A stretch of DNA of 32,914 nt from Armatimonadota bacterium (lineage in GTDB: Bacteria > Armatimonadota > Zipacnadia > Zipacnadales > FEN-943): positions 1-32,914 of the forward strand of contig PMZA01000445.1 of NCBI GenBank assembly GCA_003170595.1, in the 5' to 3' direction. Of this stretch, positions 511-30,569 are shown one piece after another. A program made the translations under genes and the position numbers. Every line of letters begins with the position of its first letter. Position 1 is the stretch's first letter. The notes below the pieces were generated by a model. That model was not told the origin of the DNA and made no database searches. It saw nothing but the letters and a program-made list of their open reading frames with translations.

Positions 511-613
511 CGCCCTGAGTGCCCTTGTGCAGTTGTCAGACCCCGCAGACAAGTCGCAGCCGCCCGACCGTTAGTTGAATAGCCAGAGCACGTGCTCTCG
601 AAGGACCTCAACC

Positions 614-620
614 GAGGTGA
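614..620 (+). promoter_or_regulatory. ribosome binding site that selects GTG 628
   Basis: GAGGTGA lies 7 bases upstream of GTG 628. The alternative upstream GTG at 592 has no comparable Shine-Dalgarno sequence, and starting at 628 gives an N-terminus of the length seen in the two NuoF paralogues of this window. Confidence 0.6.
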
Positions 621-627
621 TAGAGGC

Positions 628-2247: not shown

Positions 2248-2253
2248 CACGTC

Positions 2254-11170: not shown

Positions 11171-13366
11171 ATGTCGAAGACTGTCGCTATCGCCGCAATC
11201 CGCGGGTCTCATGGGGTGGTCGACCTCGTCGAAGAGGAGTACGAGGCCGCTCTGAGTCTGCACGGCCTCGACGGGAAGATCGGATTTCCCGCCACGGCCT
11301 TCTACCTGCCCATGGCGTGCGCGCTGCTGGGGCTGGAAGTGGAGACTCTCGGCCAGATGGGCGTGGTCCTCGACGAGGCCAAGAGCTTGCTCGCCGATGA
11401 GCCGACCGAGAACATCTGGCTGCCGTACCTGAGCAGCGCCCTCGACGCCGGCATCGCTACCCTCCTCGGCCAGGAGATGCTGATGGCCCTCCGCTACCTC
11501 GACGGCCGCGAGCCCCAGCCGGGGTGGCACGGGTTCATCTCCGACACGATCCTGCGATCGCTCGGCATCCAGCTCGTCGACGGCCGCCTGCCCGGCTTCG
11601 CGGCGATCGTGGGCGCGGCCCCGAACAACGAGACCGCCGTGCATATCCTCCGCGAGCTGCAAAAGCGGAGCATCCTCACCTTCCTCGTCGGCAACGACGA
11701 CGGCCGCACGATGCGCGATCAGCTCCTCGAGGAGGGCATCATCCCCGACGATCCGGCCGCTGGCTGGGACACCTACACCGTGCCGCTGGGGCCGGACACC
11801 CACTCGCTGATCTACGCGCTCAACTGGGCGATCCGCGGCGCCCTCACCTTCGGCGGCGTGCAAAAGGGCGACTGGGAGCGCGCGCTCAAGTATTGCCGCG
11901 ACAGAATCTTCGCCTTCGGCATGGGGCTCGGGCCCATCGACGATCTCAAGTTCGCCGCCGGTGCTGGTGCGATCAACATGGGCTTCCCGGTCATATGCGA
12001 CACGCTCATTCCGGAGATCAGGCCCACGGGCGTCTGCACCTACGAGGAGTTGGTCCACGAACTCGACCACGCCAAAATCGTGCCCACGTGCATCGAAGTG
12101 CGCGGGGTGAAGGTGACGGTCAAAGAGATCGACATCCCAGTCCCGGTGGCGGCGGCCTTCGAGGGCGAGACGGTCCGCAAGGCCGACATGCACTGCCAGT
12201 TCGGCGGCAAGTACTCCACCTGCTTCGAGTACGTGAAGATGCGCGAGATGGATGAGCTCGAGGACGGCAAAATCACTGTCCTCGGCGACGACTTCGACCA
12301 GATCGAGGAAGGCGGCGCGCGCCCCATGTTCACCTTCATCGAGGTGGCCGGGCGGAAGATGCACCAGGACTTCGAGCCCATCCTCGAACGGCAGATCCAC
12401 ACGATCCTCAACCACGCCCTCGGCGTCTTCCACATGGGCCAGCGCGACATGCCGTGGGTGCGCATCAGCAAGGATGCGGCCAAGGCCGGCCTGCGGATGA
12501 AGCACCTCGGCTCGCTGCTGATCGCCGAGTTGCACGCGCGCTTCGGCGCGATCGTGGACAAGATCCAGGTCACCATCTGCACCGACGAGAGCCGGTTCGA
12601 ACCGCTGCTCACCGAGGCGAAGCTGGCCTACGCGACCCGCGACGAGCGCATCGGCGGCATGACCGACGACTCGGTCGACATCTTCTACTCGTGCACCCTC
12701 TGCCAGTCCTACGCGCCCAACCACGTGTGCATCATCAGCCCCGAGCGCCTCGGCCTTTGCGGCGCCTACAACTGGCTCGACGGCCGCGCCTCCTTCGAGA
12801 TCAACCCCGCCGGGCCCAACCAGCCCGTGGACAAGGGGCAGACGATCGACCAGGTACGCGGCCAGTGGTCGGGCGTCAACGAATTCGTCAACGCCGCCTC
12901 GAACAAGTCCATCGAGTGCTTCAACGCCTACTCGCTGATGGAGGACCCGATGACCTCCTGCGGATGCTTCGAGTGCATCGTGGCCATCCTCCCCGAGGCG
13001 AATGGGGTCATGATCGTCAACCGCGAGTACGAGGGCATGACGCCGATAGGCATGCCCTTCACAACGCTCGCGGGCACGGTCGGTGGTGGGGCGCAGACGC
13101 CCGGCTTCCTCGGAGTGGGGCGGCTATATATCACGTCGAAGAAGTTCATCTCGGCCGAGGGCGGGCTCCCGCGAGTGGTATGGATGCCCAAGGAACTAAA
13201 GGACGGCGTCATGGATCTGCTCCGCAAGCGGGCCGAGGAGATGGGCATACCCGACCTCCCCGACAAGATCGCCGACGAGACCGTCGCCACGACGAGCGAA
13301 GAGCTGCTCGACTATCTGATGAAGGTCGACCACCCGGCACTGACGATGGATTCCCTGCTGGGATAA
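11171..13366 (+). CDS. acsB: acetyl-CoA synthase, ACS subunit of CODH/ACS
   Basis: The 731-aa protein is a full-length bacterial AcsB (about 729 aa in Moorella). It condenses CO from CODH, a methyl group from the corrinoid protein and CoA into acetyl-CoA at the Ni-Ni-[4Fe-4S] A-cluster. All A-cluster ligands are present: C508, C511, C520 and C530 in the segment CTLCQSYAPNHVC..C, and the Cys-Gly-Cys that chelates distal Ni at C597-G598-C599. Each is exactly two residues later than in the Moorella enzyme, so the protein is nearly colinear with it. The N-terminal CODH-docking domain, absent from archaeal ACS, is included. AcsC follows 12 bases downstream. Confidence 0.98.
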   Translation: MSKTVAIAAIRGSHGVVDLVEEEYEAALSLHGLDGKIGFPATAFYLPMACALLGLEVETLGQMGVVLDEAKSLLADEPTENIWLPYLSSALDAGIATLLGQEMLMALRYLDGREPQPGWHGFISDTILRSLGIQLVDGRLPGFAAIVGAAPNNETAVHILRELQKRSILTFLVGNDDGRTMRDQLLEEGIIPDDPAAGWDTYTVPLGPDTHSLIYALNWAIRGALTFGGVQKGDWERALKYCRDRIFAFGMGLGPIDDLKFAAGAGAINMGFPVICDTLIPEIRPTGVCTYEELVHELDHAKIVPTCIEVRGVKVTVKEIDIPVPVAAAFEGETVRKADMHCQFGGKYSTCFEYVKMREMDELEDGKITVLGDDFDQIEEGGARPMFTFIEVAGRKMHQDFEPILERQIHTILNHALGVFHMGQRDMPWVRISKDAAKAGLRMKHLGSLLIAELHARFGAIVDKIQVTICTDESRFEPLLTEAKLAYATRDERIGGMTDDSVDIFYSCTLCQSYAPNHVCIISPERLGLCGAYNWLDGRASFEINPAGPNQPVDKGQTIDQVRGQWSGVNEFVNAASNKSIECFNAYSLMEDPMTSCGCFECIVAILPEANGVMIVNREYEGMTPIGMPFTTLAGTVGGGAQTPGFLGVGRLYITSKKFISAEGGLPRVVWMPKELKDGVMDLLRKRAEEMGIPDLPDKIADETVATTSEELLDYLMKVDHPALTMDSLLG

Positions 13367-13378
13367 GGAGGACTTCGC

Positions 13379-14716
13379 ATGGCTCTGAGCGCAATCGAGA
13401 TCTACAAGCTCTTGCCGCAGACGAACTGCCGTGACTGCGGGTTCCCGACCTGCCTGGCCTTCGCGATGCAACTCGCGCAGAAGAAGACCTCGCTCGACAA
13501 GTGCCCGACCGCCAGCGAAGAGGCGAAGGCGGCGCTCGAGGGCTCGTCGGCTCCGCCCATCAACCTCGTGACGATTGGCGCGGGCGAGCGCGCGCTGAAG
13601 ATCGGCAATGAGACCGCGATGTTCCGCCACGAGGACGCCTTCCATCATCCGTGCGGGCTGGCCGTCACCGTGCCCAGCGACCTCGATGCGGCGCAGCTTG
13701 CGAAGCGTGCGGCTGACCTTTCGGCGCTGCAGTTCGACCGCGTCGGACAGAGCACGGGCGTGGACCTCCTTGCCTTGCAGCACGTGCCGGGCAGCGATCT
13801 GGCCGCGGCTGCGCGTGAAGTAGCCGCCAACGGCAGCCTGCCGATCGTTCTCATGACCGACGACCCAGTGGCGATGGCAGCCGCGGCTGCGGCGATCGCT
13901 GACAAACGCCCCCTCCTCTATGCCGCGACTAGCGCGAACCTCGACGACATGGCCGCGATCGCCAAGCAGCACAACCTGCCCCTGGCGGTGCGCAGCGATG
14001 GCGTCGCCAACCTCGCCGACCTCGCGCAGAGGGCGTCGGAGGCGGGTGTGACCGAGATCGTGCTCGACAGTGGCGCCCGCACTCCCGCGGAGATGCTCGC
14101 CGACTTGACCGCGATCCGGCGCGCCGCTCTGTTGAAGAAGAACCGGCAGGTGGGCCACCCGACGATCGTCGTGGCGATGGGTGACTCGCCGCTGAGCAAG
14201 GTGGTCAACGCGTCGGTAGCGATCGCGAAGTACGCCGGCATCGTGGTCGTGGACTTCGACGACCCGGCGCTGCTCCTGCCCCTCGTCACCGCGAGGCTGA
14301 ACATCTACACCGACCCGGAGAAGCCGATCCAGGTGCAGGCCGGCATCTACGAGGTCGGCACGCCGACGGAGGACTCGCCGGTGCTGGTGACGACGAACTT
14401 CTCCCTGACCTATTTCACCGTCGAGGGCGACGTGTCGGCGAGCAAAGTGCCTGCCTGGATACTCGTGGTCGACACCAAGGGCACGTCGGTCCTAACCGCC
14501 TGGGCGGCGGAGGACTTCACGGCCGAGACGATCTCGAAGGCGCTGGCCACGAGCGGCATCGCCGACAAGGTCAAGCACCGCACGGTCATCCTCCCCGGCG
14601 GCGTCGCGGTATTGAGCGGCAAGCTCGAGGACCAGTCGGGTTGGACCGTCGTTGTCGGACCACGTGAGAGCGCCGGCATACCGGCCTTTCTGAAAGCCTT
14701 ACCGGTGCCCGCGTAG
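13379..14716 (+). CDS. acsC: corrinoid/iron-sulfur protein large (gamma) subunit
   Basis: The 445-aa protein is the large CFeSP subunit, family length. It has the N-terminal [4Fe-4S] domain with C17, C20, C25 and C42 (NCRDCGFPTC, DKCPT), a TIM-barrel middle part and a C-terminal corrinoid-binding domain. It carries the methyl group on cobalt from AcsE to AcsB, and its cluster serves reductive reactivation. A clear GGAGG lies shortly before ATG 13379. The next gene is its activator and acsD follows. Confidence 0.97.
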   Translation: MALSAIEIYKLLPQTNCRDCGFPTCLAFAMQLAQKKTSLDKCPTASEEAKAALEGSSAPPINLVTIGAGERALKIGNETAMFRHEDAFHHPCGLAVTVPSDLDAAQLAKRAADLSALQFDRVGQSTGVDLLALQHVPGSDLAAAAREVAANGSLPIVLMTDDPVAMAAAAAAIADKRPLLYAATSANLDDMAAIAKQHNLPLAVRSDGVANLADLAQRASEAGVTEIVLDSGARTPAEMLADLTAIRRAALLKKNRQVGHPTIVVAMGDSPLSKVVNASVAIAKYAGIVVVDFDDPALLLPLVTARLNIYTDPEKPIQVQAGIYEVGTPTEDSPVLVTTNFSLTYFTVEGDVSASKVPAWILVVDTKGTSVLTAWAAEDFTAETISKALATSGIADKVKHRTVILPGGVAVLSGKLEDQSGWTVVVGPRESAGIPAFLKALPVPA

Positions 14717-14724
14717 GACCTGAC

Positions 14725-16641
14725 ATGAGCGCACACACTGTCATCTTCGAACCTGGAGAACGCTGCGTCTCGGTGGACGACGGGACGACGCTGGCCGACG
14801 CGGCGGCGCTGGCGGGCATCGCCCTTCCCTTGTCGTGCGGGGGCCACGGCGCTTGCGGCAACTGCGGCGTCCTCGTGCGCGCCGACGAAACGCCCTCGCG
14901 GTCCGGCGGCAAGGGCTGGGTGCTTGCATGCCAGACGCGGGTCCACGAAGACCTGGTTGTCGACGTCGGGCGGGCCGAGCGCTTGGCCGCCCAGCTTGAC
15001 GAGAGCGTCAGCGATGCTGACGTTCGCGGCTTCGAAGCCGTACCCGCCGGCGACGGCCACCCGCTGGTGCGCGCGCTGGTCGTGCGGATGAACCCGCCGA
15101 CGACGCAGGACAATTCGCCCGACCTGAGCCGCTTTCGCACCGCGCTGCGCAAGGCAGATCCGGAGCCCGCGTCCATCTCAATCAGCCTCCCTACTCTACA
15201 GTCGCTCCCCGGTGTCCTTCGCCGCAGCGGCTTCGAGGTCGAGGTCGTGCTGGCCGACGAAGGGGAGGTCTCGCGGGTCCTTTCCGTGTCGGGGCCTGGT
15301 CGCGGGTCGCCTCCGAGACATGGGGTGGCGATGGACATCGGCACTACGACGGTCGCCGGCCAACTCGTCGACATGACGCAGGCGATGTCCCTCGGGACGG
15401 CCGTTCACCGCAACGCGCAGGCCCAATTCGGTGACGACGTCATCAGCCGCATTCTTCGCTCGGAGGAGCATCCCACCGGCTTGCGGGATCTGCGCGCATC
15501 AGTTCTGGGGACTGTGAACGGCCTGATCCGCCAGCTTGCCCGGTCGGCCGGTCTCCGGCCCACCGACATCGTCGCCGCGTCCATCGCCGGCAACGCCACG
15601 ATGACGAGCTTCCTGCTGGGTATCGAGGCCCCGGCCATTCGGCGCGCACCGCATGTCCCGGCCGCCGGCGACCTGCCGGTGTTCCGGGCGGAAGAGGTCG
15701 GGCTCGAGATGAACCTGGCGGGCGCGGTCTATCTGCACCCGGCGGTCAGCGGCTTCGTCGGCGGCGACATCGTCGCAGGCGTTCTCGCCACTGGCATGGA
15801 CGAAAGCGCCGACCTGTCTCTGCTCATCGACGTCGGCACCAACGGCGAGATCGTCGTCGGGTCTTCGGAGTGGCTGACCTGCTGCTCCTGCTCGGCTGGT
15901 CCGGCCTTCGAGGGCGTGGGGATCGAGGCAGGCATGCAGGCCAGCCGCGGCGCGATCGAGCAGGTCCGCTATGACGCGAGCACCGACGCGCTTGAGCTGC
16001 GCGTGATTGGAGGCGGCCCTCCCGCTGGCATCTGTGGCACCGGTCTGCTGGAGGCGCTCGCCACGCTCTTCGAGGCCGGCATCATCGACCGCAGCGGGCT
16101 CTTCAACGCGGACGCGCCCACCAGGCGACTGAGGCAAAGCGGCTATCAGACGGAGTTCGTGCTGGTGCGTCAAGGCGAGCTGGGCGCCGTGCTGGACATC
16201 GTCCTCACCCAGGCCGACGTGGAGCACCTCATCCGCTCCAAGGCCGCCGTGCACGCGGGCATCACCGTCCTGCTGCGGGCGCTGGGCTTGCGGGCCGAGC
16301 AGATCGCGAAGGTCTACATTGCCGGAGGCTTCGGAGCGCACCTCAATCTCGAGGCAGCGGTCAAGCTCGGCCTGATCCCGGACGTTCCCGCGGAGCGGAT
16401 CGAATACGCGGGCAACAGCTCCTTGCGCGGTGCCTGCGCGAGCCTCATGTCGCGCGCGGCGCGGGAGCGCGTGAGCCGCATCGCCCAGAGCATGACCTAC
16501 CTGGAGCTTAGCGGCGACCCTACCTTCATGGATGAGTACGTGGCGTCGATGTTCCTGCCGCACACGGACCTGAGCAGGTTCCCGTCGGTGAGATGCTGGC
16601 GCCGGCGTTCGCAGGCAAGCGTAGGGCAATCGAGGAGGTAG
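14725..16641 (+). CDS. acsV: corrinoid reductive activator (AcsV/RACE-type, DUF4445)
   Basis: The 638-aa protein has an N-terminal plant-type [2Fe-2S] ferredoxin domain (C38, C44, C47, C69; CGGHGACGNC and ACQT) followed by a linker and a large ASKHA-type ATPase domain (MDIGTTTVAGQLVDM, IDVGTNGEIV, GICGTGLLEAL, IAGGFGAHLNLE). This is the layout of reductive activators of corrinoid enzymes (RACE), which use ATP to return inactive Co(II) to Co(I). Its place between acsC and acsD points to CFeSP as the substrate. The final residues are basic and variable, and the acsD start follows after 3 bases with a strong GAGGAGGT inside this gene. Confidence 0.93.
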   Translation: MSAHTVIFEPGERCVSVDDGTTLADAAALAGIALPLSCGGHGACGNCGVLVRADETPSRSGGKGWVLACQTRVHEDLVVDVGRAERLAAQLDESVSDADVRGFEAVPAGDGHPLVRALVVRMNPPTTQDNSPDLSRFRTALRKADPEPASISISLPTLQSLPGVLRRSGFEVEVVLADEGEVSRVLSVSGPGRGSPPRHGVAMDIGTTTVAGQLVDMTQAMSLGTAVHRNAQAQFGDDVISRILRSEEHPTGLRDLRASVLGTVNGLIRQLARSAGLRPTDIVAASIAGNATMTSFLLGIEAPAIRRAPHVPAAGDLPVFRAEEVGLEMNLAGAVYLHPAVSGFVGGDIVAGVLATGMDESADLSLLIDVGTNGEIVVGSSEWLTCCSCSAGPAFEGVGIEAGMQASRGAIEQVRYDASTDALELRVIGGGPPAGICGTGLLEALATLFEAGIIDRSGLFNADAPTRRLRQSGYQTEFVLVRQGELGAVLDIVLTQADVEHLIRSKAAVHAGITVLLRALGLRAEQIAKVYIAGGFGAHLNLEAAVKLGLIPDVPAERIEYAGNSSLRGACASLMSRAARERVSRIAQSMTYLELSGDPTFMDEYVASMFLPHTDLSRFPSVRCWRRRSQASVGQSRR

Positions 16642-16644
16642 ACC

Positions 16645-17616
16645 ATGCCTTTCGAGAGGCCGAAGGAGAAGTGGCGTGCGGCTGTTAACGAGGTCAGGAT
16701 CGGAGCGACCGCGGCCGAAGGCGGCACGCGCTCGACGACGATCACTGTCGGCGGCGAGGCAACGCTCCCGTTCCTCAACTTCGAGGCGGAAGCCCCTCAC
16801 CGTCCGGTGATCGCGATGGAAGTGCTCGACGTGGCGCCGACGGACTGGCCGACGCCCCTGGTCGATGCCTTCGGCGACGTGTTCGGCGATCCTGCGGCGT
16901 GGGCGCACAAGTGCGTCGAGCAATTCGGGGCTGACATGATCTGCCTCCGCCTCCAGAGCGCCCATCCCGACGCGGGCAACGCCTCGCCCGCCGACTGCGC
17001 CGCGACGGTGAAGAAGGTGCTCGAGACCGTGAGCGTGCCCCTGATCCTCTGGGGCTGTGGCGATCGCGACAAGGACAACGACCTCCTCCCGGCGATCAGC
17101 CAGGCCGCGGCTGGGGAGCGCGTCTGCCTAGGCTCGGCCGTGCATGAGAACTACAAGACCATCGCGGCCTGCGCCCTGGCCGACGGCCACGTGGTCATCG
17201 ACGAGGCGCCCCTCGACATCAACATCCAAAAGCAGGTCAACATCCTCGTCACCGAGATGGGCGTCAAGACCGAGGACATCCTCATCTACCAGTCCACTGG
17301 CGGCCTGGGCTACGGCGTCGAGTACGCCTACACGATCATGGAGCGCACTCGCCTGGCGGCCCTCGGCGGCGACAAGATGCTCTCCATGCCCATGCTCGCC
17401 ATCGTCGGCTCGGAGACCTGGCGGGCCAAGGAGTCGCGCCTGCCCGAGGCCGAAGCGCCTCAGTGGGGCAAGCAGGATGAGCGTGCGATCCTCTGGGAGG
17501 CCGTCACCGCCGAGTTTTTCATGCAGGGCGGGACGGACATCCTGGTGATGTGGCACCCCGAGGCGGTACGGCTCGTGAAGGAATCGATGCTGGCCTACTC
17601 GGCGGCGGCGGTCTGA
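16645..17616 (+). CDS. acsD: corrinoid/iron-sulfur protein small (delta) subunit
   Basis: The 323-aa protein has the length and sequence of the AcsD family. It begins with the typical MPFERPKEKW and contains the GGEATLPFLNFEAEAPHRP segment and TIM-barrel signatures. It forms the CFeSP heterodimer with AcsC, contributing to the corrinoid site and docking with the methyltransferase AcsE, encoded 26 bases downstream. No Fe-S motif is expected or seen. Confidence 0.97.
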   Translation: MPFERPKEKWRAAVNEVRIGATAAEGGTRSTTITVGGEATLPFLNFEAEAPHRPVIAMEVLDVAPTDWPTPLVDAFGDVFGDPAAWAHKCVEQFGADMICLRLQSAHPDAGNASPADCAATVKKVLETVSVPLILWGCGDRDKDNDLLPAISQAAAGERVCLGSAVHENYKTIAACALADGHVVIDEAPLDINIQKQVNILVTEMGVKTEDILIYQSTGGLGYGVEYAYTIMERTRLAALGGDKMLSMPMLAIVGSETWRAKESRLPEAEAPQWGKQDERAILWEAVTAEFFMQGGTDILVMWHPEAVRLVKESMLAYSAAAV

Positions 17617-17642: not shown

Positions 17643-18428
17643 ATGATCCTGATCGGCGAACGGCTTAACGGGATGTTCAAGCGGGTAGGCGCGGCAATCG
17701 TCGCCCAGGACGAGGCCGTGATCGTTGAGGTGGCGCAGCTACAGATCGCGAAGGGTGCCAATATTCTCGACCTCAACGTCGGCCCCTCGGCGGAAGACGC
17801 CGTGGCCGCGATGCGGTGGCTGGCTGAGACGACGCGCAAGGTCACCGACCTTCCGCTCGCCATCGACAGCCCCAAGCCGGCGGTCCTCCGCGCGGGTCTC
17901 GAGGCGGCGGGTGCGAACGCGCTCATCAACTCGACGACCGGCGAGGAGGAGAAGCTCGCCGAGTTGATGCCCCTTGCGAGCGAGTACGGCTGCCCAATCA
18001 TCGGGCTGACGATCGATGAGAACGGCGTGCCTCGCGATGCGGCCGGACGCACGGAGGTCGCCCTCAAGATCGTCGCCTCGGCAATGGAGCACGGGGTCCT
18101 GCCCGAGAACGTGTGGATCGACCCGGTCATCCTCCCGATCTCGTGCACGCAGAACCATCAGCCGGAGGTCCTCAAGGCCATCGCGGAGTGCAAGCTGCTG
18201 TCGGATCCATCACCAAAGACGATCCTGGGGCTTAGCAACGTCTCCCAGGGGACGCAGTATCGCCCTTTGGTGAACCGCACCTACCTCGTGATGGCGATTG
18301 CCTCGGGCCTGGATGGGGCGATCATGGATCCCCTCGACGACGACCTCGTGGACGCCATGATCACGGCCGAACTACTGATGAACAACACGGTCTACTGCGA
18401 CGATTTCCTGAAGGCCTACAGAACGTAG
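17643..18428 (+). CDS. acsE: methyltetrahydrofolate:corrinoid/Fe-S protein methyltransferase
   Basis: The 261-aa protein is AcsE (MeTr), family length 262. It moves the N5-methyl group of methyl-tetrahydrofolate to Co(I) of AcsCD, joining the methyl and carbonyl branches. The pterin-binding TIM barrel is visible (MILIGERLNG, NILDLNVGPSAED, LAIDSPKP), and Asn199 in GLSNVSQG, which assists methyl activation in the Moorella enzyme, is at the same number. This gene shows that the carrier is a folate and not methanopterin. GGAGGC precedes ATG 17643. Confidence 0.97.
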   Translation: MILIGERLNGMFKRVGAAIVAQDEAVIVEVAQLQIAKGANILDLNVGPSAEDAVAAMRWLAETTRKVTDLPLAIDSPKPAVLRAGLEAAGANALINSTTGEEEKLAELMPLASEYGCPIIGLTIDENGVPRDAAGRTEVALKIVASAMEHGVLPENVWIDPVILPISCTQNHQPEVLKAIAECKLLSDPSPKTILGLSNVSQGTQYRPLVNRTYLVMAIASGLDGAIMDPLDDDLVDAMITAELLMNNTVYCDDFLKAYRT

Positions 18429-18448: not shown

Positions 18449-19144
18449 ATGCTCACTCTGGAGATACATCACACCGGCGGCCTTTACGCCCAGCGGCTTA
18501 TCCATTACTTCCGGTCCCGCGGGGGCCACGTAGAGGATTACGAGGCGCCGCGCAATCTGCCCATGATCATCGACGAGCCGGAGGAGTACCTGCCGGCGAA
18601 CGCGGGTCACGGGGACGTGGTGATCGCGGTGCATATGCATCAGGACCTCGTGGTCGAGCTTCCGGACCTGATGGCGGTGCACGGCGGCAAGGCCCTGATC
18701 GTGCCGGTCGAAGACCCCGACTGGGCGCGACCGGGACTGGTCCGACAAGTAGGCGAACTGTGCCGGGGCCGAGGCCTTGAGTGCGAGTTCCCCAAGCCCT
18801 TTTGCGCGCTCAACCCGCAGGGACCGGTCCTCAAACGCTTCGCCGACGAGTACGAGGTCGGCAAGCCCGAGCTGATCCTGACCCAGCGTGACGGCCGCGT
18901 AGTGGGTGCCGAGTGCAAGCGTGGCGCGCCGTGTGGGCTGACGGCCGCAGCAGCGGGCAAGCTCGTGGGCACGGACCTTAGCCACGAGACGCTGGAGATC
19001 GTGCACTCGCTCCATGCTACCTACCCTTGCTTGGCCACCATGACTATGGACCCAGCCCTCGGAGACACAGTCATGCACCTGTCGGTAGGCCTGCTGTACG
19101 AGGCCGTCCAGGAAGCAGTGAAGAAGGCGAAGGACGAGGAGTAG
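18449..19144 (+). CDS. DUF166 family protein of unknown function
   Basis: The 231-aa protein resembles DUF166/COG1810, a family common in methanogenic archaea whose members are sometimes labelled putative thymidylate synthase without proof. Visible family-like features are IIDEPEEYLP, a PKPFC motif (C119), the pair C156/C162 in AECKRGAPCG, and YPCLATMTMDPALGDTVMH (C194). These four cysteines could bind a metal or cluster. No membrane segment or signal peptide is seen. It lies 20 bases after acsE and 29 bases before a CooC gene, so a role in maturing or serving CODH/ACS or the folate/corrinoid step is plausible, but this is inference from position. Family assignment was made from memory. Confidence 0.7.
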   Translation: MLTLEIHHTGGLYAQRLIHYFRSRGGHVEDYEAPRNLPMIIDEPEEYLPANAGHGDVVIAVHMHQDLVVELPDLMAVHGGKALIVPVEDPDWARPGLVRQVGELCRGRGLECEFPKPFCALNPQGPVLKRFADEYEVGKPELILTQRDGRVVGAECKRGAPCGLTAAAAGKLVGTDLSHETLEIVHSLHATYPCLATMTMDPALGDTVMHLSVGLLYEAVQEAVKKAKDEE

Positions 19145-19173: not shown

Positions 19174-19923
19174 ATGAAGTTAGCGGTCGCCGGCAAAGGC
19201 GGCGTTGGCAAGACGACAGTCTGCGCGGGCCTTACGCTGTTACTGGCCGAGGCCGGCAAAGTCATGGCCGTGGACGCCGACCCGAACAACTGTCTGGGCT
19301 TTGCCCTGGGGATACCGCCGGACAGGCTGGTGGACATCAAGCCCGTGTCTGAGATGAAAGAACTGCTTGCGGCAAGGGCGGGCAGTTCCGGGGGCGGGAT
19401 GTTCGACCTCGCGCCCGAGGTGGCCGACCTGATCGAGGAGTTCAAGATCAGCGACGGCAACATCGACCTGCTGGTCATGGGCACGATCGATCGCGGCGGT
19501 GCGGGTTGTGCCTGCTCGCTCAACAGCACCCTCAAGCAGCTTCTCCGCGAGCTTGTTGCCCTGCCGGGATCCCTCCTGGTGGATATGGAGGCCGGCCTGG
19601 AGCACCTGGGCCGGGGTACGGCCGCCGCCGTCAACGCCTTCCTGGTCGTCGTGGACCCGACGCCGCCGGCCCTGCGCGCGGCTTTGCGCATTGTGAAACT
19701 CGCCGGCGAACTCGGGATCACCAACGTCTTCGCCGTCGGCAACCGTGCGTCCACCGAGGGGGAGAAGACCCTCATCCGCGAGGCCCTCGGCGACATGCCG
19801 GTGATTGGCTTTGTCGGCGACCATCGCGGTCTCGCGCAGGAAGGCGTCTTTGCTGGCGACGCCGGCCAGGCCCTCCGCGCCGACCTCGCCGCCGTCCTCG
19901 AGAACCTTCGCACGCGAGCCTAG
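19174..19923 (+). CDS. cooC: CooC-type nickel insertion ATPase (CooC/AcsF)
   Basis: The 249-aa protein is a MinD-like P-loop ATPase of the CooC/AcsF family, with a deviant Walker A (GKGGVGKT) at residues 7-14, a Walker B-like VDMEAGLEHLGRG segment and the Cys-X-Cys motif C112-A-C114, the nickel-binding pair of CooC dimers at the same numbers. It uses ATP to insert nickel into CODH or ACS. It follows the DUF166 gene and is followed by a second CooC paralogue; the two may be specific for the C-cluster and the A-cluster, but the sequence alone does not tell which. Confidence 0.93.
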   Translation: MKLAVAGKGGVGKTTVCAGLTLLLAEAGKVMAVDADPNNCLGFALGIPPDRLVDIKPVSEMKELLAARAGSSGGGMFDLAPEVADLIEEFKISDGNIDLLVMGTIDRGGAGCACSLNSTLKQLLRELVALPGSLLVDMEAGLEHLGRGTAAAVNAFLVVVDPTPPALRAALRIVKLAGELGITNVFAVGNRASTEGEKTLIREALGDMPVIGFVGDHRGLAQEGVFAGDAGQALRADLAAVLENLRTRA

Positions 19924-19959: not shown

Positions 19960-20727
19960 ATGTCGAAAACGATAGTGGTCGCCGGAAAAGGCGGCAGTGG
20001 CAAGACAGTGATCGCGGCCCTGATGGTCAAGGCCCTCGTCGAGTCGAAGGCCGGGACCATCCTCGCGGTGGACGCCGACCCCAATCGCAACCTCGACCGC
20101 GCCCTCGGCGTCGAGGCCGAGGAGACCGTGGGCAGCATCCGCGAGAACATGCTCGAGGAGATCACCTCCCTCCCCGGTGGGATGACCAAGGCCGAGTACA
20201 TCGCCTACCGCACGCAGCAATCGATAGTGGAGACGGACGACTTCGACCTCCTCGCCATGGGCCGCCCCGAGGGGCCCGGCTGCTACTGCTACGCTAACAG
20301 CATCGTCCGGCAAGTGGTGGACAAACTGTCGGACGAGTACGACTACGTGGTCGTTGATTGCGAAGCCGGCCTCGAACATCTCAGCCGCCGCACCGCCGGC
20401 CGGGCGGACTATGTGCTGGTAGTCGCCGACCCGAGCGTGCGCTCCGCCGAGACGGTGCGCCGCGTGGTAGAGCTGATGGAAGACCTCGGCACGCCTCTGG
20501 GCAAGACCGTGGTCGTGGCCAACCGCAGTCGCAATGGCATGGTCCCCGCTGTCCGCGCGATCCTGGAGGGCGTCGCCGCCGGCGCTGTCAGCGTGGTCCC
20601 GGAAGACGAGGGCGTCCACTGCCTCGATGATGCCGGCGAAGCGCTGTTGAAGGTGCCACTGGACAGCCCTGCCTATCGGGCCGTCAAGGACATCGTCCGC
20701 GAGAGCGGCATTGCCGAGGTTGAGTGA
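19960..20727 (+). CDS. second CooC-type nickel insertion ATPase
   Basis: The 255-aa protein is a paralogue of the preceding gene with Walker A GKGGSGKT, VVVDCEAGLEHLSRRT and the Cys-X-Cys motif C108-Y-C110 (GPGCYCYAN). It has its own GGAGG ribosome binding site in the 36-base gap. Tandem CooC genes are known in acetogens, where one serves CODH and the other ACS. The two copies differ strongly in sequence, so the duplication is old or they were brought together from different clusters. Confidence 0.92.
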   Translation: MSKTIVVAGKGGSGKTVIAALMVKALVESKAGTILAVDADPNRNLDRALGVEAEETVGSIRENMLEEITSLPGGMTKAEYIAYRTQQSIVETDDFDLLAMGRPEGPGCYCYANSIVRQVVDKLSDEYDYVVVDCEAGLEHLSRRTAGRADYVLVVADPSVRSAETVRRVVELMEDLGTPLGKTVVVANRSRNGMVPAVRAILEGVAAGAVSVVPEDEGVHCLDDAGEALLKVPLDSPAYRAVKDIVRESGIAEVE

Positions 20728-20732
20728 GAGCC

Positions 20733-21842
20733 ATGGTCCAGTCCATCTACATAGCGGGTACAGGACAGCATGCGGGCAAGACCTTCGTCTCCCTGGGCCT
20801 CGTGGCGGCGCTGCGCGAGAGAGGCCTGGCGGTCAGGTATATGAAGCCGGTCGGCCAGCGGACCGTGCACGTTGACGGCGTGTCCGTCGACGAGGACGTG
20901 GCCCTGATCCATCGCGTCTTCGGCATGCCCGGCGCCGTGACGGCGGCCAACCCCATCACCGTTCCCCGCGGGTTCACCCAGCGCTTCCTGCTGGGGGGCG
21001 GCAACACGGACTCGCTGAAGGAGAAGATACTGGCGGGCTTCGCAGAGACCAGTGACGGCGCCGACGTAGTTGTCGTTGAGGGCACGGGCCACGCCGGCGT
21101 GGGCGCCGTCCTCGGCCTCTCGAACGCGACGGTCGCGGCTCTCCTCAACTCGAGGACCATCGTCGTCATCGGCGGCGGCATCGGACAACCCATCGACGAA
21201 TTCGCCGTCAACCAGGCGCTCTTCGAGAAGGAAAGCGCCCCTCTCCTGGGAGTGATAAGCAACAAGGTTCAGCCCTCGAAGATGGAGGAATGCCGTTCGA
21301 CGGTGTCGGTGTGGTTCGGCGGCGCGGGGATTCCCGTCTTGGGCATGGTCCCGATGCTGCCCGTTCTCTTGGAGATCACCCTCCGCCAGGTAGTCCACGA
21401 GATCGAGGCCTACGTCCTCAGCGGCGAGGAGTTCCTCGACCGCCGTCTCCGCAAGTTCATCATCGGCGCCGCGCCCGCCCACCGGCTGCTCGACGAGTTC
21501 ACCGAGGGCACTCTGGTCATCACGCCCGGAGACCGCGATGACATCATCCTGGCCTGCATCTCCGCCGAACTCAGCGCCGAGGCCAGCGACGACGCGCCCC
21601 ACGTCTCGGCCCTGTGCCTCACCGGCGGCGTCCGCCCGCAAACGAACGTGCTGCGAATCATCGAGCGGAGCCGCGTACCGGTCATCGCCTCCGACGATGG
21701 CACCTTCAACCTCGCCACGCGGATCGCGAACCTCGTTGCGAAGATCCTTCCGAGGGATCACGAGAAGATTCGCATCGCCAAGGAAACGGTCGGCGAGCTC
21801 GTGGACATCGACAGAATCGCCGGCGGTCTGTCGAGCGCCTAG
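20733..21842 (+). CDS. BioD-like ATPase with DRTGG domain (PTA N-terminal-like)
   Basis: The roughly 369-aa protein combines a dethiobiotin-synthetase-like P-loop domain (GTGQHAGKT near residues 8-16, VVVEGTGHAGVG) with a C-terminal DRTGG domain (VITPGDRDDIILACIS). This equals the N-terminal regulatory half of large phosphotransacetylases without the catalytic PTA domain. Stand-alone versions exist in many bacteria and their role is unclear; at the end of an acetyl-CoA-forming operon a sensor or regulator of acetyl-CoA/acetyl-phosphate metabolism is conceivable, but unproven. Biotin synthesis is unlikely because no bio genes are near. A GTG at 20724 overlapping the previous stop is an alternative start. 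Confidence 0.85.
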   Translation: MVQSIYIAGTGQHAGKTFVSLGLVAALRERGLAVRYMKPVGQRTVHVDGVSVDEDVALIHRVFGMPGAVTAANPITVPRGFTQRFLLGGGNTDSLKEKILAGFAETSDGADVVVVEGTGHAGVGAVLGLSNATVAALLNSRTIVVIGGGIGQPIDEFAVNQALFEKESAPLLGVISNKVQPSKMEECRSTVSVWFGGAGIPVLGMVPMLPVLLEITLRQVVHEIEAYVLSGEEFLDRRLRKFIIGAAPAHRLLDEFTEGTLVITPGDRDDIILACISAELSAEASDDAPHVSALCLTGGVRPQTNVLRIIERSRVPVIASDDGTFNLATRIANLVAKILPRDHEKIRIAKETVGELVDIDRIAGGLSSA

Positions 21843-25202: not shown

Positions 25203-25771
25203 TGCCCGAAGCCCAGGTCATGACGGCCACGCTTGAACCCGCGATCCAGACCGTGCAGGCAGTTAGGGCGGCTGAGGCGGCCGAGGCCGTGGACGCGGTT
25301 GACCTCTCGCTGCTCGAGCCCCTGCTGGCGATGTACCCCCGCCAACCCGACCACGTCATACCCCTCTTGCGCACCGTGCAGAAGCACTACGGCTACATCC
25401 CCGCCCAGATGGTCGGCCTCATCGCCGCGCATCTGCACGTGTCGCGGGCCAAGGTGTTGGGCGTCGCCACCTTCTACCCGCAGTTCTCCCTCACGCCCCA
25501 AGGCCGCCATAAGGTATGCGTATGCCGGGGCACGGCCTGCCACGTCCGCGGCGGTAGACAGGTCCTCGACACAGTCCGCAAGCAACTCGGCGTCAAGCCG
25601 GGAGAGACCACCGCCGACCACGACTTCACGCTGGAGACCGTTGCCTGCGTGGGAGCCTGCGCCGTCGGGCCTGTCATGACGGTGGACGGGGAGTGCTACG
25701 GCAAGCTCGACCAGAGCGATGCCCTGGAGGCGCTCAGCCACTGCCGCCGGGAGATGCCCGCCGCACGATGA
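25202..25771 (+). CDS. NuoE-type subunit of NAD-linked formate dehydrogenase
   Basis: ATG 25202 overlaps the mobA stop and has a GGAGGAG site. The 189-aa product has an Ala/Glu-rich N-terminal extension of about 35 residues, then the NuoE fold (LLRTVQKHYGYIP, VLGVATFYPQF) and the [2Fe-2S] ligands CRGTAC and CVGAC. The frame is open upstream inside mobA, but the extension is not conserved. It should relay electrons for the NuoF encoded directly after (ATGA overlap) and FdhA. The role as the gamma subunit of an NAD-dependent FDH follows from context. Confidence 0.93.
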   Translation: MPEAQVMTATLEPAIQTVQAVRAAEAAEAVDAVDLSLLEPLLAMYPRQPDHVIPLLRTVQKHYGYIPAQMVGLIAAHLHVSRAKVLGVATFYPQFSLTPQGRHKVCVCRGTACHVRGGRQVLDTVRKQLGVKPGETTADHDFTLETVACVGACAVGPVMTVDGECYGKLDQSDALEALSHCRREMPAAR

Positions 25772-27465
25772 TACGGTCACGGCAGGATCTGGCCGCCCGC
25801 AAGTGGGCCGCCCTCGTCGCCATGCCGGAGCGCACCCTCGCCGTGTGCAGCACCGGCTGCCAGGCGGTCGGCGCCGCGCAGGTATGCCAGGCCTTCGAGG
25901 ACGAGATCACCCGCTTGGGCGTAGCGGACCGGGTGCGTCTCAAGCGCACCGGCTGCCACGGTTTCTGCGAACAGGGCCCGGTCCTTGTCGTCCACCCCGA
26001 GCGCATCTTCTACCCCCACGTGCGGGTCGAGGATGTCCACGAGATCCTCGAGCGCACCGCCCTCCGCGGAGAACCCATCGACCGCATCCTCTACACCGAC
26101 CCCAAGACTGGCGAGAAGATCGTGCGCGACTGCGACGTGCCCTTCTACCGGTTGCAGACTCGCATCGTCTTCCGCCACAACATCGAACTCGACCCGGTGG
26201 ACCTGGACGACTACATCGCGCGGGATGGCTACGCGGCGGCCGCGAGGGCCCTCTGTGAGATGCAGCCCGAACAGGTCATCGACGAGGTGAAGCGGTCCGG
26301 CCTGCGTGGGCGGGGCGGCGCAGGCTTCCCCGCCGGCGTGAAGTGGGACCTCTGCCGCTCGGCTACCGGGTCCCAGAAGTACCTAATCTGCAACGCCCAC
26401 GAGGGCGACCCGGGCGCCTTCATGGACCGCAGCCTCCTCGAGGGCTCACCCCATGCGATCCTCGAGGGCATGATCGTCGCGGGCTACGCCATCGGGGCCA
26501 CGAAGGGGCTCATCTACGTGGGCGCCGAGTACCCTCTCGCCATCACGCACGCGAGCATCGCCCTTGAGCAAGCCCGCGACGCCGGACTTCTCGGCGACAA
26601 CATCCTGGGCTCCGGGTTCTCCTTCGACATCAGCCTCCACGAAGCCGCAGGCGTTTTCGTCTGCGGCGAGGAGACGGCGCTTATCGCCTCGCTGGAAGGC
26701 TGCCGCGGCATGCCTCGTCCCAAGCCGCCCTTCCCCGGCCAGCGCGGCTACAAGAACGCGCCCACGACCATCAACAATGTCGAGACGCTGGCCAACATCG
26801 CGCCCATCCTTCTCAACGGCGCCGAGTGGTATGCCTCCTTCGGCACCGAGGGCAGCAAGGGCACGAAGATCTTCGCCCTCGCCGGCAAGGTGAACTGCAC
26901 CGGCCTCGTCGAGGTACCCATCGGGACGACCCTCCGCCAGATCATCTTCGAGATCGGCGGCGGCATCCCCGGCGGCCGGAAGTTCAAGGCGGCTCAGATG
27001 GGCGGCCCCTCCGGCGGCTGTGTCCCCGCCCGCTACCTGGACTTGCCCATCGACTACGACACGCTCAAGGGTGTCGGCGCGATGATGGGCTCAGGCAGCC
27101 TCATCGTCATGGACGAGGATACCTGCATGGTGGACATCGCCCGCTTCTTCCTCGAATTCACGCAGAGCGAGTCCTGCGGCAAGTGCGTGCCCTGCCGGAT
27201 CGGCACGCGCCGGATGCTGGAGATCCTCGATCGCATCACTGGGGCCGGAGGCCCCCCGGGCGAGGCCCGCCTGAGCGACCTTGACGAGCTTGAACACCTC
27301 GCCGAGACCATCAAGCTCAGCGCCCTCTGTGGCCTGGGCCAGACCGCCCCCAACCCCGTGCTTTCCACTCTCCGTTACTTCCGCGACGAGTACGAAGAGC
27401 ACGTCCTGTTCCGGCATTGTCGCGCAGGCGTCTGTGAGGGTCTCGTGCGCGCCCTGCCGATCTGA
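25768..27465 (+). CDS. NuoF-type FMN/NADH subunit of formate dehydrogenase
   Basis: The 565-aa protein starts at ATG 25768, which overlaps the nuoE stop as ATGA. It has the N-terminal thioredoxin-like domain (CSTGC, GCHGFC), GLRGRGGAGFPAGVKW, NAHEGDPGAFMDRS, VFVCGEETALIASLEG, INNVETL, an SLBB segment and the [4Fe-4S] motif SCGKCVPC. It has no C-terminal ferredoxin, unlike the CODH-linked copy, which fits a simple NAD+-reducing FDH beta subunit. One oddity is His211, where relatives have Asp in the N(A/G)DEG segment of the FMN pocket. Confidence 0.94.
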   Translation: MIRSRQDLAARKWAALVAMPERTLAVCSTGCQAVGAAQVCQAFEDEITRLGVADRVRLKRTGCHGFCEQGPVLVVHPERIFYPHVRVEDVHEILERTALRGEPIDRILYTDPKTGEKIVRDCDVPFYRLQTRIVFRHNIELDPVDLDDYIARDGYAAAARALCEMQPEQVIDEVKRSGLRGRGGAGFPAGVKWDLCRSATGSQKYLICNAHEGDPGAFMDRSLLEGSPHAILEGMIVAGYAIGATKGLIYVGAEYPLAITHASIALEQARDAGLLGDNILGSGFSFDISLHEAAGVFVCGEETALIASLEGCRGMPRPKPPFPGQRGYKNAPTTINNVETLANIAPILLNGAEWYASFGTEGSKGTKIFALAGKVNCTGLVEVPIGTTLRQIIFEIGGGIPGGRKFKAAQMGGPSGGCVPARYLDLPIDYDTLKGVGAMMGSGSLIVMDEDTCMVDIARFFLEFTQSESCGKCVPCRIGTRRMLEILDRITGAGGPPGEARLSDLDELEHLAETIKLSALCGLGQTAPNPVLSTLRYFRDEYEEHVLFRHCRAGVCEGLVRALPI

Positions 27466-27486
27466 TGGGGGCTAGGAGCATCGTCC

Positions 27487-27822
27487 ATGATCAAGATCGC
27501 AATCCTGTTTCGCCGCGCCTCGGGCCTGACGCATCAGCAGTGCGTCGAGCATTGGCTCACCGTGCACGGCCCTCTCGTGCGCGAGAGCGACTGCGGCCGG
27601 CGCTATGTCCGCAGGTACGTCAACGCGGAGATCACCTGCAGCCTTCCGCCCGGCGCGGCCGAGTACGACGGCATCGCGGAAATGTGGTTCGACAACCGCG
27701 AAGACTTCGAGGCCTTCTTCGCCGATCCCGAGTACGCGGCGGTGCTGGGTCCGGATGCCGCCTGCTTCGCCGATATGCCGAACCTGCGGATCTTCGCCAC
27801 CGAGGAGACTCCGGTCCTTTGA
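27487..27822 (+). CDS. EthD-like dimeric alpha/beta-barrel protein
   Basis: The 111-aa protein resembles the EthD domain family (dimeric ferredoxin-like alpha/beta barrel): it starts MIKIAILFRRASGLTHQQ, has the WLTVHGPL motif and a C-terminal DREDFEAFFADPEY-like segment (here DNREDFEAFFADPEY). EthD proteins accompany various oxidative and redox systems, with mostly unknown roles. It sits between nuoF and fdhA with gaps of 21 and 14 bases and no signs of transfer. No function in formate metabolism is known to me. Confidence 0.8.
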   Translation: MIKIAILFRRASGLTHQQCVEHWLTVHGPLVRESDCGRRYVRRYVNAEITCSLPPGAAEYDGIAEMWFDNREDFEAFFADPEYAAVLGPDAACFADMPNLRIFATEETPVL

Positions 27823-27825
27823 CTC

Positions 27826-27830
27826 GAGGT
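27826..27830 (+). promoter_or_regulatory. ribosome binding site that selects GTG 27837 for fdhA
   Basis: GAGGT lies 6 bases before GTG 27837. The same frame is open upstream through the whole EthD gene, but that extension is a shadow; the protein starting at 27837 (VSLTINNKP) begins directly with the NuoG-like [2Fe-2S] domain, as expected. Confidence 0.6.
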
Positions 27831-27836
27831 GCGCCC

Positions 27837-30569
27837 GTGGTCTCGCTAACGATCAACAACAAACCCGTCACCGCCGCGCGCGGAACTAACCTCCTCGAGG
27901 CCGCGCTCGCGGCGGGCATCAAGATCCCGCATCTCTGCTACGACCCGCGTCTGGAGGCCTACGGTGGCTGCCGACTCTGCCTGGTGGAGATCGAGGGCCG
28001 GCCGGCCCCGGTCACCGCCTGCACGACGGAAGTGGCCGAGGGCATGGTCGTCCATACCGAGACCGATCTTCTGCGCGACGTGAGGCGTACCCTAGTCAAG
28101 CTCCTTCTCTCCGATCACCCGCGCAAGTGCCTCACCTGCGGCAAGGCCGGCGTGTGTGACCTGCAGGACCTGGCCTATGACTTGAAGATCGAGGAGTTCG
28201 ACCCGACGCCCCGTGAGCCCTGCCCGGTGGTCGAGGCAGTCGGCAATGCCGTCATCTACCGGGATGCCGAAAAGTGCATCCTCTGCGGCAAGTGCGTGCG
28301 GCTGTGCGGGGAACTGCAGGCCGTCGGCGCCGTGGATTTCGTCGGACGCGGCTTCGACACGCACATAGACCCGCCGGCCGGCGGGCTGAACTGGAACACC
28401 GACTGCGAGCTATGCGGCCAGTGCGTCGACGCCTGTCCCACCGGCGCCCTGATGGTCCAGCGCGCTCTCGACCGTGGCCGCCCGAAGGATTTCACCAAGG
28501 TCCGCACCACCTGCGGCTACTGCGGCGTGGGCTGTGTGCTCGATCTCAACGTCCTCGACGATGAGGTCGTCCAGGTCACCGGCGATCTCACCGTCCCGCC
28601 CAACTTCGGCAACCTCTGCGTCAAAGGTCGTTTTGGGTATGAGTTCATCGAAGCCCCCGACCGCTTGAGTACGCCTCTGATCCGCAAGGACGGCGTGCTC
28701 GTCGAGGCCACGTGGGACGAAGCCTACGCTTTGATCGCCACCCGCCTGTCCGAGATTGCCGAGCGCTACGGCCCCGACGTCCTCGGCTTCGTCAGCTCCT
28801 CGCGCTGCACGAACGAGGAGAACTACCTGATGCAGAAGCTGGCGCGGCAGGTCTTCGGCACCCACAACGTCGATCAGTGCGCCCGTACGTGCCACGCCCC
28901 GACGGTCGCGGGGCTGGCGCTCTCCTTCGGCAGCGGCGCGATGACCAACTCGATCGGCGAAATCCGCGACTGCGACTGCCTCCTCGTCATCGGCTCCAAC
29001 ACGACGGAGGCGCATCCCGTCCTCGCCCTTGAGATGAAGCGGGCCTGGCGGCGCGGCGCCGACATCATCGTGATCGACCCCCGGCGCATCGGCATGACCG
29101 AGTTTGCGAAGCTACATCTCGCCCTCAACCCCGGCACCGACATCACGCTGATCAACGCGATGATGCACGCGATTCTCGAGGAGGGGCTCGAGGATGCGGC
29201 CTTCATCGCCGAGCGTACCGAAGGCTTCGAAGAGATGCGGGAGGTCGTCACCCGCTACCGGCCCGAGGATGTTGCCGGCCTCTGCGGCGTGCCCGCCGAG
29301 GACATCCGCGCCGCAGCTCGCCTCTACGCGACGGCCGACAAAGCTGCCATCTTCTACACCCTCGGCATCACCGAGCACACCTGCGGCACCGACAACGTCC
29401 GCTCCTGCGCGAATCTCGCAATGCTTACGGGCCACCTCGGCCGGGAAAGCACCGGCGTGAACCCCCTCCGCGGCCAGAACAACGTGCAGGGCTCGTGCGA
29501 CATGGGCGCCCTGCCTAACGTCTACCCCGGCTACCAGAAAGTGGACGACCCCGCCGTCCAGGCCAAGTTCTCGGCCGCTTACGGGCGCGACCTGCCCGCC
29601 TCCGTCGGCCTCACCACCACCGAGATGATCGAGCGCGCCCTCGACGGGCAGATCAAGGCCCTCTATGTCATGGGCGAGGACATCGTGATGAGCGAACCCT
29701 TCCTCGCGCGCACCGTCGAGGCCGTCGAAAAACTGGACTTCCTGGTCGTCCACGACCTCTTCCTGTGCCGCACGGCCGAGTACGCCGACGTTGTGCTTCC
29801 GGCGGCATGCTTCGCCGAGAAGGACGGCACCTTTACGAACACCGAGCGCCGCGTGCAGCGCGTGCGGCAGGCGATCTCGCCGCGGGGTCAGAGCAAGGCC
29901 GACTGGGAGATACTGGTCGAGGTCGCGGGCCGCCTGGGCCACGACTGGGGCTACGATCACCCCTCCGCCATCTGGGACGAGATGGCCGCGCTATCCCCGA
30001 TCTTCGCCGGCATCAACTACGCCCGCATCGACGAGGTCGGCCTGCAGTGGCCATGCCCCTCGACGGACCATCCCGGCACAAGGTTCCTCCATCAGAGCAA
30101 GTTCTCGCGTGGCCTGGGCAGGTTCTTCCCGATCGATCATCGCCCGCCCGCCGAGGAGCCCGACGGCGAGTATCCCTTCGTCCTCATCACCGGGCGCACG
30201 TTGTACCACTACAACGTCGGGACCATGACGCGGCGCAGCCGGGCCAGCGCCGAGCGCCAGCCCGAGGCCTTTGTCGAGATCTCGCCCGAAGACGCCGCAC
30301 GTCTTGGCGTCAAGCACGAGGAGAAGGTCCGCGTGAGCACCCGGCGCGGTGTGCTGACCGTGAACGCCTGGGTCACCGACCGCGTGAAGCCGGGCAAGAT
30401 CTGGATGCCCTTCCATTTCGCCGAGCAGCCCGCCAATGCCCTGACTGTCGATGCCTTCGACAACATCACCCGGACGGCCGAGTACAAGGTCTGCGCGGCA
30501 GCCGTGGAACCCGTCGTTCTGAAGGCCGGTCACGTCCGTGGGGCCGCCTTCGCCGCGCCGTCAGGTTGA
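27837..30569 (+). CDS. fdhA: NAD-linked formate dehydrogenase, catalytic alpha subunit
   Basis: The 910-aa protein is a cytoplasmic Mo/W-bis-MGD formate dehydrogenase. In order: NuoG-like [2Fe-2S] (CYDPRLEAYGGCRLC), His-Cys3 cluster (HPRKCLTCGKAGVC), two [4Fe-4S] motifs (CILCGKCVRLC, CELCGQCVDACP), FDH-type [4Fe-4S] (CGYCGVGC..CVKG, Lys263), the active-site pair Cys352-His353 (TCHAPTVAG), Arg545 in NPLRGQNNVQGSCDMG, and a C-terminal dinucleotide-binding domain. The metal ligand is Cys, encoded TGC, and not selenocysteine. All catalytic residues of formate dehydrogenases are present. It works with the upstream NuoE and NuoF to couple formate/CO2 and NAD+/NADH, and would supply formate to the methyl branch of the pathway. 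fdhD follows 4 bases later. Confidence 0.95.
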   Translation: MVSLTINNKPVTAARGTNLLEAALAAGIKIPHLCYDPRLEAYGGCRLCLVEIEGRPAPVTACTTEVAEGMVVHTETDLLRDVRRTLVKLLLSDHPRKCLTCGKAGVCDLQDLAYDLKIEEFDPTPREPCPVVEAVGNAVIYRDAEKCILCGKCVRLCGELQAVGAVDFVGRGFDTHIDPPAGGLNWNTDCELCGQCVDACPTGALMVQRALDRGRPKDFTKVRTTCGYCGVGCVLDLNVLDDEVVQVTGDLTVPPNFGNLCVKGRFGYEFIEAPDRLSTPLIRKDGVLVEATWDEAYALIATRLSEIAERYGPDVLGFVSSSRCTNEENYLMQKLARQVFGTHNVDQCARTCHAPTVAGLALSFGSGAMTNSIGEIRDCDCLLVIGSNTTEAHPVLALEMKRAWRRGADIIVIDPRRIGMTEFAKLHLALNPGTDITLINAMMHAILEEGLEDAAFIAERTEGFEEMREVVTRYRPEDVAGLCGVPAEDIRAAARLYATADKAAIFYTLGITEHTCGTDNVRSCANLAMLTGHLGRESTGVNPLRGQNNVQGSCDMGALPNVYPGYQKVDDPAVQAKFSAAYGRDLPASVGLTTTEMIERALDGQIKALYVMGEDIVMSEPFLARTVEAVEKLDFLVVHDLFLCRTAEYADVVLPAACFAEKDGTFTNTERRVQRVRQAISPRGQSKADWEILVEVAGRLGHDWGYDHPSAIWDEMAALSPIFAGINYARIDEVGLQWPCPSTDHPGTRFLHQSKFSRGLGRFFPIDHRPPAEEPDGEYPFVLITGRTLYHYNVGTMTRRSRASAERQPEAFVEISPEDAARLGVKHEEKVRVSTRRGVLTVNAWVTDRVKPGKIWMPFHFAEQPANALTVDAFDNITRTAEYKVCAAAVEPVVLKAGHVRGAAFAAPSG

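Follow-up and report, generated by a model that had tools for sequence, protein, structure and literature searches.

A DUF166 protein from an Armatimonadota CODH/ACS operon with a predicted IscU-like domain is a candidate helper for metal-centre assembly

The DUF166 protein encoded in the CO dehydrogenase/acetyl-CoA synthase (CODH/ACS) operon of an Armatimonadota bacterium is a candidate helper for metal-centre assembly, given the linkage and co-occurrence of its family with CODH/ACS and the predicted IscU-like fold of its second half. We put at about even the chance that DUF166 is a CODH/ACS accessory protein, a two-domain metallocluster scaffold or chaperone composed of a Rossmann-like and an IscU-related domain; both the role in CODH/ACS maturation and the binding of metal are what we infer. 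The recognised CODH/ACS accessory proteins (CooC, CooJ, CooT and AcsF) have been associated with the binding of nickel or metal, and to our knowledge the assembly of the nickel-iron-sulfur clusters of CODH and of the A-cluster of ACS is only partly known. In the open-access literature we found no paper linking DUF166 to CODH/ACS or to IscU, and such a link may be in print elsewhere; new here are the predicted IscU-like C-terminal and Rossmann-like N-terminal domains of DUF166. An IscU-like family travelling with CODH/ACS in archaea and several bacterial phyla would point to a named gene and four named residues. If true, this would give a DUF a function and the DfsP selenoproteins a hypothesis, and would make DUF166 a candidate for a missing helper of the metal centres of an ancient carbon-fixing enzyme.

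The window, by which we mean the whole stretch of 32,914 nucleotides that was analysed, carries on its forward strand an operon with the order cooS, electron-transfer genes, acsB, acsC, acsV, acsD, acsE, DUF166, two cooC-like ATPase genes and a gene whose product is similar to the Pta N-terminus. The genes ahead of DUF166 are cooS (CO dehydrogenase, 5516-7453; PF03063, 563 bits), acsB (acetyl-CoA synthase, 11171-13366; NF040764, 989 bits), acsC (CODH/ACS gamma subunit, 13379-14716), acsV (corrinoid reductive activator, 14725-16641), acsD (CODH/ACS delta subunit, 16645-17616) and acsE (methyltetrahydrofolate:corrinoid methyltransferase, 17643-18428; PF00809 and NF005719, 292 bits). The DUF166 frame follows after 20 bases at 18449-19144 on the forward strand, runs from ATG to TAG and encodes 231 amino acids; 29 bases further on, at 19174, is the ATG of the first cooC-like gene. 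The initial annotation, which had placed the gene between acsE and cooC, was thus correct on this point. Its assignment to DUF166 was likewise borne out by a profile search, in which PF02593 was the single Pfam family on the frame (E = 1.9e-43; 149.1 bits against a gathering cut-off of 24.4; residues 28-225). The protein is a full member of PF02593 and COG1810, which we take to be the same family, with no difference from it. The "archaeal flavour" ascribed to the protein did not hold, as it groups with Armatimonadota sequences and its family occurs widely among bacteria. Its closest named relatives are from Armatimonadota metagenome-assembled genomes (MAGs), and 41-73% identity to 14 relatives from the same taxonomic order speaks for a conserved gene rather than a chance open reading frame. 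The source genome (6.45 Mb assembly, 84.5% complete) contains one DUF166 gene only. The Wood-Ljungdahl pathway has been reported from the phylum (PMC10290634). The two cooC-like P-loop ATPases downstream (19174-19923, PF01656; 19960-20727, PF13614/PF01656; both forward strand) each have a CxC motif, and Cys116 and Cys118 of one CooC are described as conserved metal-binding sites (PMC7079680).

Linkage was scored for the best 80 of 153 DUF166 relatives obtained from one pattern scan of genome contigs, a locus counting as linked if a core CODH/ACS gene of the same strand lay no more than 5 kb away. Such a gene was linked in 40 of these 80 loci and cooC was the only linked gene in 4 further loci; neither was near DUF166 in 36 of the best 80, several of which lie on short contigs. 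The linked loci showed several gene orders: acsE-DUF166-cooC in Armatimonadota, acsE-DUF166 without cooC in the Hebobacteria type, acsC-DUF166-POR in two Bacillota, cooS-cooC-fhs-DUF166-FTCD_C in Thermosediminibacter, DUF166-cooS-acsB-acsD-acsC-acsV in Anaerolineae, and cdhA-DUF166-cdhB-cdhC in Dehalococcoidia and in four Desulfobacterota loci (L113-L116). Four other Desulfobacterota loci (L138-L141) had the order acsB-acsD-acsC-acsV-cooC-DUF166. The cdhA, cdhC and cdhB genes of locus L060 were verified by TIGR00314, TIGR00316 and PF02552. By parsimony on a quick tree of 48 linked and 20 unlinked rows, the linkage state changes at least 7 times. Unlinked canonical DUF166 genes of Desulfobacterota have SufC and an SmsB-like SufBD as neighbours, directly 5' of DUF166 (L065, 7992-9966; L052, L075 and others). 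A short DUF166 paralogue of Methanobacteriales (L098, 2242-3571) adjoins two DsrE-type genes and a gene for a protein ending in a CdhE-like Fe-S domain.

We then compared the presence of DUF166 (PF02593) and acsB (PF19436) within the same genomes of four lineages, leaving out the seed genomes that had been chosen for DUF166 (G000; G067; G056; G060, G049, G064, G069). In the Armatimonadota order (n = 40), 15 genomes had both, none had DUF166 only, 3 had acsB only and 22 had neither (Fisher P = 2e-8). The corresponding counts were 21, 3, 1 and 123 for Methanobacteriales (n = 148; P = 3e-21), 5, 0, 32 and 213 for Chloroflexota (n = 250; P = 6e-5) and 51, 4, 135 and 103 for Desulfobacterota (n = 293; P = 1e-7), with kinship ignored in every test. 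The association with CODH/ACS claimed in the initial annotation is supported by these values, and the combination of gene linkage and co-occurrence that would be expected of a maturation factor was found. A small number of losses could account for the Methanobacteriales pattern. A further possible artefact is the joint disappearance of linked genes from incomplete MAGs; it is less likely in Methanobacteriales because neither DUF166 locus of G105, the one genome of this order in which both were read, adjoins CODH/ACS genes.

The association is not an obligatory one. DUF166 was present in just 5 of the 37 acsB-bearing Chloroflexota genomes. CODH content was considered as an explanation for the many absences, on small numbers: CooS was found in all of these (5/5, n = 5 only), and of the 32 acsB genomes without DUF166, 16 had CooS over the cut-off, 2 had a CdhA-like pattern and 14 had neither. 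Because these 32 Chloroflexota and 135 Desulfobacterota genomes have acsB without DUF166, the protein is optional for CODH/ACS and cannot be generally essential, as expected of a factor that is replaceable by other scaffolds or needed in some conditions only. Conversely, acsB was over the cut-off in 42 of 50 genomes chosen via their DUF166 loci. Fifteen DUF166 genomes were without over-cut-off acsB (8 from these 50, 3 Methanobacteriales and 4 Desulfobacterota); CooS was over the cut-off in 7 of them, a CdhA-like pattern was present in 3 and neither in 5. In a 2007 comparison (PMC1852104), COG1810 (MMP0976) is listed, as is the epsilon subunit of CODH (MMP0984), with the proteins that all methanogens and A. 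fulgidus have; Methanosphaera stadtmanae is given there as lacking both.

A full-length AlphaFold2 model built from a 59-sequence alignment (pLDDT 95.6, pTM 0.91) predicts a Rossmann-like N-terminal domain (residues 1-135, 18449-18853, forward strand) containing C119 and a C-terminal domain (residues 136-231, 18854-19141, forward strand) containing C162, C194 and H210. With the full model, VIA-align returned Rossmann-type domains only, for the most part spanning residues 1 to about 161 and with Z up to 11.0; Rossmann dehydrogenases reached Z of about 11 over about 120 residues. Foldseek returned nothing at E ≤ 0.001 for the full model and general Rossmann matches only. The IscU signal emerged only when residues 136-231 were modelled alone (AlphaFold2, pLDDT 90.4, pTM 0.81). 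This model aligned with ISCU2 in VIA-align at Z = 8.8 and an rmsd of 2.5 Å over 84 of 96 residues; ranks 1-16 were all IscU or ISCU2, and the first non-IscU structure followed at Z = 7.5. Foldseek also placed the IscU group on top, with a best E of 0.04 that is not significant. The C-terminal domains of the Mo-CODH medium subunit and of LplA were similar as well and were rejected, ranking lower at Z of about 7. Since VIA-align Z values of 7-8 are common for models without relatives, we sought a second line of evidence in profile comparison.

Simple sequence searches did not make this connection. The whole DUF166 protein had no relatives in the PDB by sequence, and its profile gave one chance-level match there (E = 0.12). 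HMMER did not find IscU when the C-terminal domain was run against Pfam and the PDB, and none of 59 C-terminal domains matched PF01592 even with E values of up to 10 admitted, so that DUF166 is not filed as a member of PF01592. For profile-profile comparison, an IscU/NifU_N set was taken from 36 diverse genomes, with 26 of 30 loci aligned and then 20 weaker matches added to give 46. When the 112-row profile of this domain was compared in hhalign with the 26 IscU sequences, the result was P = 1.6e-4 and a score of 29.4, against 18.4 for the highest of 100 column shuffles and 19.9 for the reversed profile. With the 46 sequences, the match was collinear over 79 columns with P = 2.7e-5, a probability of 74.5% and a score of 33.2. 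As controls, 33 unrelated families taken from the same loci reached P = 8.4e-3 at best with the DUF166 C-terminal domain and 4.8e-3 with IscU. Narrower sequence sets weakened the match (P = 0.0031, 0.0072 and 0.057, the last with few DUF166 sequences). We consider remote homology of the C-terminal domain to IscU likely.

The ligand set of IscU consists of three cysteines, an aspartate and a histidine, and DUF166 matches it only in part. In the alignment, C162-G163 falls on the Cys-Gly of IscU (the cysteine being that of the GCG motif), G174 on an IscU glycine and H210 on the histidine of the HC motif; C162 and H210 are the only ligand positions matched. The aligned region does not extend to the first ligand motif of IscU, Cys-Gly-Asp, and the last cysteine, in HC, is L211 in DUF166. 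The protein thus resembles the IscU/SufU/NifU N-terminal scaffold (PF01592) in its predicted C-terminal fold, whereas it has an extra Rossmann-like domain in front, lacks the Cys-Gly-Asp loop and the HC cysteine, and has C119 and C194 placed elsewhere. A separate IscU (L186) is also encoded in the source genome.

Residue conservation was examined in 112 relatives (89 canonical, 15 DfsP-like and 8 Methanobacteriales short paralogues). C119 (codon 18803-18805), C162 (18932-18934) and C194 (19028-19030), all on the forward strand, were invariant in 112 of 112 rows across the three subfamilies, although part of the relatives had been found with two scan patterns, one containing C194, which biases that set for C194 but not the loci found by HMM. 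The same three cysteines are present in all 15 proteins of the taxonomic order. C156 is a cysteine in 9 of the 89 canonical rows, where valine is the usual residue, and is not conserved within the order either. Of the four conserved cysteines proposed in the initial annotation, three therefore stand and C156 does not, and a four-cysteine site was rejected. H210 (19076-19078, forward strand) was present in 86 of 89 canonical and 15 of 15 DfsP-like rows and in none of the 8 short paralogues.

The DfsP subfamily differs at the residue before C119. Directly 5' of the C119 codon, 11 of 30 Desulfobacterota loci have an in-frame TGA within the motif PP[TI]UC, which is what DfsP selenoproteins would show; the UGA beside C119 in this subfamily is probably read as selenocysteine. 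The preceding residue is U or C in 15/15 DfsP-like rows and F or L in 89/89 canonical rows; in the window protein it is F118. The window protein is homologous to DfsP and has C119, C162, C194 and H210 in common with it, but it scored 61.1 bits with the DfsP model NF041372, below the cut-off of 200, and has no selenocysteine or cysteine at residue 118. CODH/ACS genes were found in 0 of 13 DfsP-type stretches, and the subfamily may therefore serve something else. Several of the 11 TGA-bearing DfsP-type loci (L120-L137) adjoin a gene of the fumarylacetoacetate hydrolase family.

If the predicted fold is correct, C119 of the N-terminal domain would come together with three residues of the IscU-like domain, C162, C194 and H210, in one putative 3-Cys/1-His site that could stand in for the missing IscU ligands. 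Such a site might transiently bind an Fe-S cluster or a metal ion, which DUF166 would pass to CODH (C-cluster) or ACS (A-cluster) beside the nickel-handling CooC ATPases; in the Methanobacteriales short paralogue, without H210, the site would differ. The idea of a metal or cluster site, already raised before this analysis, gains from the three invariant cysteines and the predicted IscU-like domain. DUF166 would share with the nickel ATPases CooC and AcsF a proposed place in CODH/ACS maturation, and the genes are adjacent, but no family match relates it to them and it has no P-loop ATPase domain. A more detailed version, which we offer tentatively and think rather doubtful as a whole, is that DUF166 is a dedicated scaffold for the Fe-S part of the C-cluster or A-cluster before CooC-type ATPases add nickel. 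Its IscU-derived domain would be fused to a Rossmann-like one that contributes the remaining cysteine of the site, the protein would accompany archaeal and bacterial CODH/ACS alike, and DfsP would be a selenocysteine offshoot for another target.

The same 3-Cys/1-His site could instead bind Ni(II) and deliver nickel to CODH/ACS with CooC, the IscU-like fold being a metal-binding frame only. A nickel or zinc carrier of this kind is consistent with cooC adjoining DUF166 both in Armatimonadota and in a Desulfobacterota group of different operon order, and a selenocysteine beside C119 in the DfsP group would suit a Ni ligand. We nevertheless regard it as unlikely, as the DfsP-type loci lack CODH/ACS linkage (0/13) and the presence of SufBC and DsrE among the neighbours suggests a part in handling Fe-S clusters or sulfur.

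Of those neighbours, the two DsrE-type genes beside the Methanobacteriales short paralogue would also fit a thiol or selenol protein, in which the cysteines carry a persulfide or cycle as a disulfide (Sec-Cys in DfsP) and thereby serve or protect CODH/ACS. The TGA directly before C119 in the 11 Desulfobacterota loci points in this direction, and the DUF166 family is tabulated in sections of selenoprotein reviews (PMC9312934, PMC13188914). With F or L at residue 118 in every canonical member, which leaves them without selenocysteine or cysteine beside C119, we give this possibility little weight.

We think it improbable that DUF166 is a C1-transfer enzyme or a regulator of the methyl branch. 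Methanogen members have carried the old label "thymidylate synthase", and DUF166 lies directly 3' of acsE in the window and between fhs and the cyclodeaminase-type FTCD_C gene in Thermosediminibacter. Against this, the Pfam search of the window protein gave no pterin or folate domain match, the fold searches led to Rossmann and IscU-like domains, and no C1-branch gene is in contact with DUF166 in the cdhA-DUF166-cdhB order; the C1 transfer suggested in the initial annotation is weakly favoured by the fhs-DUF166-cyclodeaminase-type order. That DUF166 has no direct role and is a general anaerobe protein carried in mobile CODH/ACS clusters would suit the 36 unlinked loci among the best 80 and the many acsB genomes without DUF166, but is improbable as well in view of the several linked gene orders and of Methanobacteriales, all of which are anaerobes and in which DUF166 tracks the presence or absence of acsB in 144 of 148 genomes, though unlinked in G105.

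Other features of the window and of related genomes deserve mention in addition to the metallocluster helper that we favour. The AAA_26 and DRTGG protein at the end of the operon (20724-21842, forward strand) is similar to the N-terminal portion of phosphotransacetylase but lacks the catalytic portion; several Armatimonadota (L018, L019, L031, L032, L040) also have it 3' of cooC in their CODH/ACS operons. On either side of the operon, at 592-4968 and 25693-30569, are two sets of NuoF-like and molybdopterin oxidoreductase genes that are likely NAD-linked formate dehydrogenases, the second being followed by an fdhD-like gene. A further acsB, scoring 378 bits, lies on a different contig of the source genome (G000:C13:761-1489). 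Open frames of ~625 amino acids (G003:C15, G020:C30, G090:C99) matched the C-terminal domain of ACS in part, with about 134-147 bits; they occur besides or without a normal acsB and possibly represent a divergent ACS-like protein in Armatimonadota.
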